Positions 13,846 to 18,798 of a stretch of 64,000 bases of DNA are shown here, in pieces. This DNA is from Gemmatimonadaceae bacterium (GTDB lineage Bacteria; Latescibacterota; UBA2968; UBA8231): the NCBI GenBank assembly GCA_026706075.1, contig JAPOZM010000105.1, positions 1 to 64,000 on the forward strand, given 5' to 3'. Every line of letters starts with the position of its first letter. Positions within the stretch are counted from its first letter, which is position 1. The notes under the pieces are model-generated. The model was not told the DNA's origin. It worked only from the letters and a program-made list of their open reading frames with translations, and searched no databases. The position numbers were made by a program, and so were the translations under genes.

Positions 13846-14409
13846 TTACCGCACCACCTCGTCCACCTGGGCCAGGATCTCCTCGACCGCCGGGCGGTCG
13901 GAGATGCTCTCCCCCACGAACCTCCAGACGATGCGCCGGTCCGGGGTGATGATGAAGGCGGACGGCGCGGCGACGCCGTCGTTCAGGAGGTTGTAGACCC
14001 CGTAGTCCCGGGCCACGGCGCCGTCCTCGTCGGAGAGGATGGGGAAGCCGGCGCCGCTGAGCTCCGCCATGTTGCGCGCGTCCTCGAGATCATCGGTGCT
14101 GATCGCCGCCAGCGATACGCCGCGCTCCACGAAGGCGGGGTGGGACTCTGCCAGCTCACCTAGCTGGGCCCTGCAGAGACCTCAGAAGAACCCCCGGTAG
14201 AACACGAGCACCGCGGCGGCCCGATCCTCCAGCAGGTCGGAGAGGAAGACGGAGTCCCCGTCGGCGGCGGGCAGGGTGAAGGCCGGGGCCCGCTCGTCGA
14301 CGGAGACCCCCTTGTCGGAGTCCGAGCCGCAGCCGGCGAGAACCGCCATGGCCGCGGCCAGGAGCGGGACCATCGCTCTCGCCCCGCTCCTGGCGAGGAC
14401 GCCGGTCAT
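13846..14409 (-). CDS. redoxin (AhpC/TSA-type) lipoprotein with in-frame UGA, probable selenoprotein
   Basis: 187 residues if UGA 14184-14182 is read as selenocysteine. The ATG at 14409 overlaps the stop of the isomerase gene (ATGA). A lipobox (VLAGC, Cys27) implies membrane anchoring on the outer face. The redoxin fold follows: APAFTLPAADGD, LVFYRGFF, then Sec76-Gly-Leu-Cys79, RAQLGEL, 'GVSLAAISTDDLEDAR' and 'GFPILSDEDGAVARDYGV'. In relatives this site reads YRG-x-W-C-P-x-C, so Sec replaces the peroxidatic Cys (UxxC). Frame and homology continue on both sides of the UGA, and a SECIS-like hairpin follows it. It would reduce peroxides or disulfides. Read conventionally, the gene looks like two broken pieces. 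Confidence 0.85.
14143..14181 (-). promoter_or_regulatory. bacterial SECIS element after the UGA codon
   Basis: Immediately 3' of the UGA the RNA can fold into a hairpin. A lower stem pairs 14178-14174 with 14150-14146, extended by two pairs beyond a U-U mismatch. An upper six-pair stem, CCAGCU with AGCUGG (14167-14162 with 14156-14151), carries a five-base AGGUG loop. The loop GG begins 21 bases after the UGA, within the spacing expected for SelB-recognised bacterial SECIS elements, which need a G near the start of the apical loop. Folded by hand. Confidence 0.7.
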
Positions 14410-15233
14410 CCTCCCTGGGCCTCGTTCAGCACCTGGCGCAGGTGCCGCGCGGCGAGGCGGACGCACTCCTCCCAGCCGCAGCTGTTGCGGTCCCCGATCT
14501 CGAAGACCATGCCGAGGGAGCCGTTGAACCCGACCTCCTGGAGGAGGCGGACCACGCGCGGGTAGTCGATCCACTCCTCGTGCCCGGCGTCGATCTTGTA
14601 GATCTTGGCGCGCACGTAGATCGCGTGGGGCGCCGTGGGCCGCAGGTAGTCCTCGTAGAGGTCGACGTCCGGGTCGAACTCCCCTCGCACGTGGGAGCCG
14701 ATCGCCCCCTTCCACTGTCCCGTGTCCATGAGGAAGTGGAAGTTCGGGCGGTCCACGTCGCCGAGGATGCGCAGGGCCTGCCTGGCGGTCATGCAGAAGC
14801 TGCTCTCGTCGTGGTTCTGCAGGGCCAGGGTCACCCCCTGGGCGGCGGCGTAGTCGGACAGCTCCTGGAAGCTGGCCACCATGGGCGCCCACAGGCGCTC
14901 CTGCTCCTCCACGGAATCCGGCCACTTGGCGCGGGCGAAGACGCGCACCATCTGGGCGCCCAACTGCGCCGCCGTGTCCACGTCCTGCCGGCCCTGGGCC
15001 AGGCGCTGCTCCTTCTCCTCCGGGGGGCCGGCGTAGGAGCCGGAGCCGGCGTAGCCGATGGTCAGGCCCCGCCGCACGCAGTGCCAGCGCACGGCCTTGA
15101 GCCGCTCCGGGTCCCGGTCCAGGCCCGAGAGGTGGATGTCGATTCCGTCGAGGCCCAGTTCGGCGGCCAGGTCCACGGTCTCGTCGATGGGGGCTCCCGC
15201 CCCCTCGCGCGCCATCATGCTCAGTCGAATCAC
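14406..15233 (-). CDS. sugar phosphate isomerase/epimerase (TIM barrel)
   Basis: 275 residues; the GTG start overlaps the stop of the upstream serine hydrolase gene. It has the xylose isomerase-like barrel pattern: LGLDGIDIHLSG near residue 27, 'LALQNHDESSFCMTARQA' in the middle, FHFLMDTGQWKG, and FEIGDRN near the end. These segments supply the usual Glu/His/Asp metal ligands of AP-endonuclease-2-like isomerases. The substrate is unknown, but the surrounding genes point to sugar metabolism. Coupled downstream to the selenoprotein gene (ATGA). Confidence 0.85.
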   Translation of the reverse strand: MIRLSMMAREGAGAPIDETVDLAAELGLDGIDIHLSGLDRDPERLKAVRWHCVRRGLTIGYAGSGSYAGPPEEKEQRLAQGRQDVDTAAQLGAQMVRVFARAKWPDSVEEQERLWAPMVASFQELSDYAAAQGVTLALQNHDESSFCMTARQALRILGDVDRPNFHFLMDTGQWKGAIGSHVRGEFDPDVDLYEDYLRPTAPHAIYVRAKIYKIDAGHEEWIDYPRVVRLLQEVGFNGSLGMVFEIGDRNSCGWEECVRLAARHLRQVLNEAQGG

Positions 15234-17781: not shown

Positions 17782-18798
17782 TCAGGAAGGCGGCTCCTTG
17801 CGCAGGGCGTTGCCGTCGGAAATCCCGCAGCCGGCCAGCAGGGTGCGCTGCACGGCCAGGTCGTGGTCGGCCCCGTAGTCGGGCTCCTTGCCGCCGCGGA
17901 TGCAGGCGGCCAGCTCCCGCAGCAGGGTGGGGTCGGTCTCGCCCCGGGCGCGGTCGGCGGTGACCCACTCCCCGGCGGGGTAGCCGTCGACGGGGCTCTT
18001 CAGAAACACGCGCAAACCGTCGGAGCCCAGGGGCTCGTGGAGGGCCGTGCCGGCGGTGCCGTGGACCTCCAGCCGGCGGTCCATGCCGATCTGCATGGCC
18101 GTGGTGTCCACCGTGCCGAGCCCGTCCCGGCACTCGTGGACGACCACGGCGTTGTCGACCTCGGAACGGTCGCCGTAATGGCAGGCGAGGGCCGAGTGCA
18201 CGCGCAGGGGCTCCCCCATCATCGTCACCATCAGGTCGAGGAGGTGGCCGGCCATCTCGAAGTAGACGCCGCCGTGGTAGACGGTGAACTCCTCGGCCAG
18301 CTGCGGATGCCAGCCCATCGGCTTGGGGATGTGGCCCCGGAACTGGTAGACCTGGCCGAGGGCGCCGGCGGCGGCCAGGCGCAGCAGCTCGCGGACGGCG
18401 GCGTTGTAGCGCCACATGTAGGCCAGGTGCAGCTGCAGGCCGGCCTGAGCCGCCAGGTCCTGGAGCCGCGAGAACTGGGCCAGGTCGACGCCCGCCGGCT
18501 TCTCGAGCAGGACGTGCTTCCCCGCCCGCAGGGCCGCCTCGGCGTAGTCGAGGTTCTGGTAGACGTGGCCCTCGACGACGACCGCCTCGGCGTCGCTGGC
18601 CAGCACCGCCTCCACGGAGGGGAAGACCGGCAGCGGCCCTCCCTGTCCCGCCCAGCGCTCCTGCCTGCGGGCGATGACCTCGTCGTCGGGGTCGTACATG
18701 CCCAGCAGCTCGAACTCGTCGGGGCGGCGGTGGGCCTCCTCCACGTGCATGGAGGCGTGGCTGTGCCAGGCGCCGAGAAACGCGAACTTGAGTCTCAT
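17782..18798 (-). CDS. Gfo/Idh/MocA family oxidoreductase
   Basis: 338 residues. N-terminal Rossmann fold with FLGAWHSHASMH, then GKHVLLEKPAGV carrying the family EKP motif with its catalytic Lys. The C-terminal domain includes YHGGVYFEMAGHLLDLM with the conserved Asp/His region. It would oxidise or reduce a sugar or cyclitol with NAD(P). Divergently paired with another Gfo/Idh/MocA gene 47 bases away. The genes downstream at 17703-13846 may be co-transcribed. Confidence 0.92.
   Translation of the reverse strand: MRLKFAFLGAWHSHASMHVEEAHRRPDEFELLGMYDPDDEVIARRQERWAGQGGPLPVFPSVEAVLASDAEAVVVEGHVYQNLDYAEAALRAGKHVLLEKPAGVDLAQFSRLQDLAAQAGLQLHLAYMWRYNAAVRELLRLAAAGALGQVYQFRGHIPKPMGWHPQLAEEFTVYHGGVYFEMAGHLLDLMVTMMGEPLRVHSALACHYGDRSEVDNAVVVHECRDGLGTVDTTAMQIGMDRRLEVHGTAGTALHEPLGSDGLRVFLKSPVDGYPAGEWVTADRARGETDPTLLRELAACIRGGKEPDYGADHDLAVQRTLLAGCGISDGNALRKEPPS

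Follow-up and report, generated by a model that had tools for sequence, protein, structure and literature searches.

Peroxiredoxin-like (Prx-like) selenoproteins with a UxxC motif were described within pfam00578 in 2005 and 2008 (PMC1088965, PMC2398784) and are covered in a 2026 review (PMC13188914), which lists Prx-like records such as WP_010940744.1. For the peroxiredoxin-like family, a selenocysteine (Sec) form with UxxS is listed as well (PMC13188914, PMC9312934). The bacterial SECIS (bSECIS) element is held to have a loop of 3-9 nt, a stem of 4-16 bp, a G in loop positions 1-2, a spacing of 16-37 nt and an energy of <= -7.5 kcal/mol (PMC13188914).

Here we analyze a gene in a 64,000-nucleotide stretch of contig JAPOZM010000105.1 (the window), for which a first-pass annotation had proposed a redoxin lipoprotein split by UGA and probably a UxxC selenoprotein. 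The annotation had also stated that Sec at this site is known in Prx-like selenoproteins; the UxxC class has been known since 2005. The predicted protein has in common with the UxxC selenoproteins of pfam00578 the AhpC/TSA domain, UxxC instead of TxxU, and a SECIS directly past the UGA. Judged by its sequence, it belongs to this already known class as an added example. Compared with the named members of the class, to which we liken it by their description, it differs in being a putative lipoprotein with the motif FYRGFFUGLC. With the peroxiredoxin-like cd02970 / AhpC-TSA_2 type it shares the FYRG..(C/U) active-site loop, which reads FYRGFFCPRD in cyanobacterial homologues, but it has UxxC rather than UxxS and its weak match to PF13911 (20.3 bits) lies below the Pfam cut-off of 27. 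The Sec-peroxiredoxins PrxU / Prx (TxxU) carry the same Pfam domain and the PrxU model NF040737 gives a weak match (50.1 bits vs a cut-off of 270); in the window protein, however, Sec stands three residues earlier, at the Thr position, and the catalytic Pro and Arg are absent. The best NCBIfam model is that of the SelL-related redox proteins (NF040769), yet its 63.8 bits, with the best stretch at residues 40-137, stay under the curated cut-off of 120.

Results

The minus-strand frame contains a single TGA and is otherwise open from its ATG, which shares bases with the stop codon of the sugar-epimerase-like ORF lying upstream (ATGA), down to a TAA terminator (Table 1). When translated with read-through, it matched PF00578 (AhpC-TSA) with 101.6 bits (cut-off 26) over residues 37-162, with the UGA inside the matched stretch. 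The frame and the family pattern are intact across the UGA, as had been claimed for this locus at the outset. Reading the N-terminus against the lipobox pattern [LVI][ASTVI][GAS]C points to LAGC at residues 24-27, and the orthologues have LAGC or LVGC. Across the window, 213 TGAs have at least 45 open codons on either side, and only 6 of them are flanked by coding-like GC3 on both sides. A G-bearing hairpin accompanies just two of these six, namely the TGA described here and the one at 17784, which is the natural terminus of a Gfo/Idh-type ORF. The TGA at 14184-14182 together with its hairpin is more than chance. No link to a redox partner was seen in the genomic neighbourhood, where the upstream genes are sugar-epimerase-like and Gfo/Idh-like; the orthologues occupy other genomic contexts than the window gene.

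Table 1. Features of the predicted selenoprotein gene, in window coordinates.
Feature	Position	Strand	Details and basis
Predicted selenoprotein gene, complete	13846..14409	(-)	187 residues, Sec at 76; ATG 14409, TAA 13848-13846
In-frame TGA, read as U76 of FYRGFF-U-GLC	14182..14184	(-)	TGA in orthologues, Cys in homologues
Cys79, second residue of UxxC	14173..14175	(-)	Column of the peroxiredoxin peroxidatic Cys; alignment to 2cx3 and ResA
Putative lipoprotein signal peptide, lipobox L-A-G-C27	14329..14409	(-)	Sequence reading only
Predicted SECIS hairpin CCAGCU-AGGUG-AGCUGG	14151..14167	(-)	6 bp, 5-nt loop 14161-14157; pairing in 17 sequences, covariation, RNAalifold
Extended SECIS region, possible lower stem below the hairpin	14143..14181	(-)	Folding; alternative pairing more stable

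The AlphaFold model of the protein showed a confident Prx-type fold (mean pLDDT 84.7) with U76 directly before helix 77-95, and the nearest solved structures were Bcp4 and AhpE peroxiredoxins, the best being Bcp4 (TM 0.87 by target). This closeness of the overall fold to the Bcp and AhpE peroxiredoxins speaks for a true peroxiredoxin using Sec as its peroxidatic residue, a proposal about the chemistry alone that can stand beside the selenoprotein reading. We nevertheless consider it improbable, because the active site does not fit. In the alignment to peroxiredoxin 2cx3, CGLC lies over SPVC, and the ungapped alignment of the motif likewise pairs U76 with the Thr/Ser of PxxxTxxC, and C79 with the peroxidatic Cys. 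The initial placement of the UGA at the peroxidatic Cys was thus wrong. C79 is the sole residue kept of the canonical PxxxT(S)xxC plus Arg signature: R72 takes the place of the Pro, U76 that of the Thr, and P149 stands in the column of the catalytic Arg. Moreover, the Sec-peroxiredoxins known are TxxU and not UxxC (PMC1088965, PMC2398784). In the alignment to ResA, the residue opposite U76 is the first Cys of CxxC. As the UGA sits on the Thr/Ser position and the Pro and Arg are missing, we infer a Prx-like UxxC thiol oxidoreductase, the activity being putative; hydroperoxide reduction may take place through another geometry. The cyanobacterial Cys homologues retain only the first Cys (CPRD), a pointer that position 76 is the essential one.

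The first-pass annotation had described a SECIS-like hairpin starting at once after the UGA, with a GG-bearing loop 21 bases away. The position of the GG, 21 nt past the UGA, was borne out and the hairpin covaries. The hairpin begins 14 nt past the UGA and its loop at 20 nt; single-sequence folding lends it no significance (see below). With 6 bp, the 5-nt loop AGGUG, a spacing of 20 nt and an energy of -7.8 kcal/mol for the isolated hairpin, it lies within the published constraints (PMC13188914). All six pairs are formed in 17/17 distinct Sec-type sequences (100%), which are mutually related and do not count as independent events. Compensatory double changes among the 17 sequences affect three of the six pairs (GC/CG, GC/AU and CG/UA). 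As a control, partner columns slid by 1-3 positions pair in 0-43% of cells. RNAalifold, unaided, predicts the same helix. The five core pairs are complete in 24 of 27 Sec-type sequences vs 1 of 31 Cys homologues; the three exceptions are the UxxS paralogues L056-L058, whose hairpin has another register and which were excluded from the 17. In synonymous shuffles the five core pairs survive complete in about 10-25% of cases per sequence, which indicates that the protein motif Q-L-x-x-L itself favours part of the hairpin. Folding of the window's own SECIS by itself was not significant for a sequence of its composition (z = +0.2 to +0.3; stem probability ~0.2), and an alternative pairing gains a further 1.1 kcal/mol in stability. 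No family exceeded its gathering score in an Rfam scan of the window. The structural case for the predicted SECIS rests on comparison, and single-sequence folding alone is uninformative.

The selenoprotein reading had been tied to the presence of sel genes in the genome, and these were all found. A selB gene scores above the curated cut-off, a selA-like ORF, which we named selA from its position, lies immediately upstream of it on the same contig, and a tRNA-Sec with the anticodon TCA follows 16 nt downstream of selB. This selA-selB-tRNA-Sec cluster is compact (L038, 9601-13059 on the minus strand), and the ORFs listed for selA and selB overlap each other. The selD gene (L075, from 1501; G000:C7:42957-43880) carries an in-frame TGA of its own in the motif TCGU and likely encodes a Sec-containing selenophosphate synthetase, as far as the sequence goes. 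A tRNA scan of the window found none, since the tRNA-Sec lies on another contig. The assembly is a multi-contig bin with an estimated contamination of 9%, and the sel genes are on contigs other than that of the window. A look for 16S rRNA in the bin found none. In the phylum, SelB is above its cut-off in 44 of 64 genomes, and within this class in almost all of them. Its near-universal presence in the class indicates that the Sec trait belongs to the lineage, which eases the worry about bin contamination. In the other families of the phylum SelB is mostly absent.

The same codon is TGA, and UxxC is present, in 7/7 orthologues found in separate assemblies of other genomes of the family (62-64% identical), and one of the seven comes from a single-contig genome. 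TGA also occupies the homologous codon in more distant homologues of the class (L077-L081 and L083-L087, with FYRGYWUPHC) and likewise in a paralogue encoded by the window's own genome (L061, with FYRAHWUPHC). In the UGA column, TGC or TGT (Cys) stands in the homologues from cyanobacteria and in a few others, within the near-identical FYRGFF-C-PRD. Pairwise comparisons gave a dN/dS of about 0.10-0.32 after the UGA, showing that the C-terminal part is selected as a protein, and the frame is under purifying selection on each side of the UGA. Both comparisons by which the first-pass annotation could be checked, the alignment of Cys homologues over the UGA and the position of the UGA in relatives, came out in its favour: the Cys falls in the same column, a sequencing error is refuted, and together with the covarying SECIS and the Sec machinery they uphold the UxxC selenoprotein that it had proposed.

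Related Prx-like genes with TGA codons were observed alongside. L061 (1501-2040 on the minus strand; G000:C80:29220-29759) is a second Prx-like protein of the genome and has a 7-bp hairpin with the loop GUC; its sequence makes it a probable further selenoprotein, akin to those of L077-L087. The Prx-like proteins of L048, L050, L051 and L054 are longer and carry the motif SASWUG[FS]C; their genes have TGA at the same codon, a hairpin with a GGUCG loop and an additional C-terminal stretch in frame. The UxxS paralogues L056, L057 and L058 (FFRGTWURRS) come from sister genomes and have a different hairpin of 7-8 bp, which is out of register with the SECIS of the others.

UGA is reassigned in some bacterial lineages, and on this general ground the codon might be read as Trp or Cys through a changed code or a suppressor, without selenium. 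We rate the chance of this as very slight. Six of the seven orthologues use TGA as their genuine gene terminator. UGA thus keeps its role as a stop in them, and its recoding is context-specific and not a general reassignment. In addition, the residue of the homologues in this column is Cys and not Trp, and selA, selB, selC and selD are all in the genome together with a covarying SECIS. A lone TGA in an otherwise good gene resembles a fresh nonsense mutation, and a pseudogene or a miscalled TGC/TGT could account for it; however, the identical TGA in independent assemblies refutes this, and the purifying selection past the TGA and the covarying hairpin speak against it too, leaving its probability negligible. 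Just as negligible is a split gene, with translation ending at the UGA and a separate C-terminal protein of 94 residues starting from a GTG at 14130. Mechanical ORF calling does yield two unrelated pieces, 13846-14130 (with this GTG start) and 14182-14925, as had been foreseen for standard gene calling. However, the 94-residue fragment would be missing the initial beta strands, the loop of the active site and the greater part of the first long helix (H77-95), and there would be no explanation for the conservation of FYRGFF, GLC and the hairpin between the pieces.

Discussion

We are highly confident that the gene is intact and that its UGA is read as Sec by means of the hairpin, yielding a U76-C79 redox protein of antioxidant type, putatively a lipoprotein, with a peroxiredoxin-like thioredoxin fold. 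The fold, the motif, the conservation of the UGA, the covariation of the SECIS and the presence of the machinery are computational observations, from which we infer Sec insertion itself. SelB carrying Sec-tRNA-Sec would bind the hairpin just downstream of the UGA and deliver Sec at this codon in place of release-factor action. The product would be exported as a lipoprotein and located at the cell envelope, where it probably faces the periplasm. There, U76-G-L-C79 would act as a redox pair placed at the N-terminal end of a helix; U76 would most likely make the nucleophilic attack and C79 provide the resolving thiol. The cycle would be thioredoxin-like and either thiol:disulfide exchanging or hydroperoxide-reducing.

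We further speculate that the FYRGFFUGLC lipoproteins are a subfamily of their own among the Prx-like selenoproteins, not yet catalogued, in a class with near-universal Sec decoding and an undescribed selenoproteome. We hold this only tentatively, with the chances somewhat below even; the subfamily may be uncatalogued because no NCBIfam model reaches its cut-off for the window protein. A gene that is called as fragments or as a pseudogene would also leave its protein missing from the databases. Knowledge of selenocysteine itself is unchanged by the finding. Reading the gene correctly gives a little-studied lineage a reliable set of Sec redox proteins that are probably anchored in the membrane, and it supplies a SECIS with clear covariation that single-sequence folding would miss.
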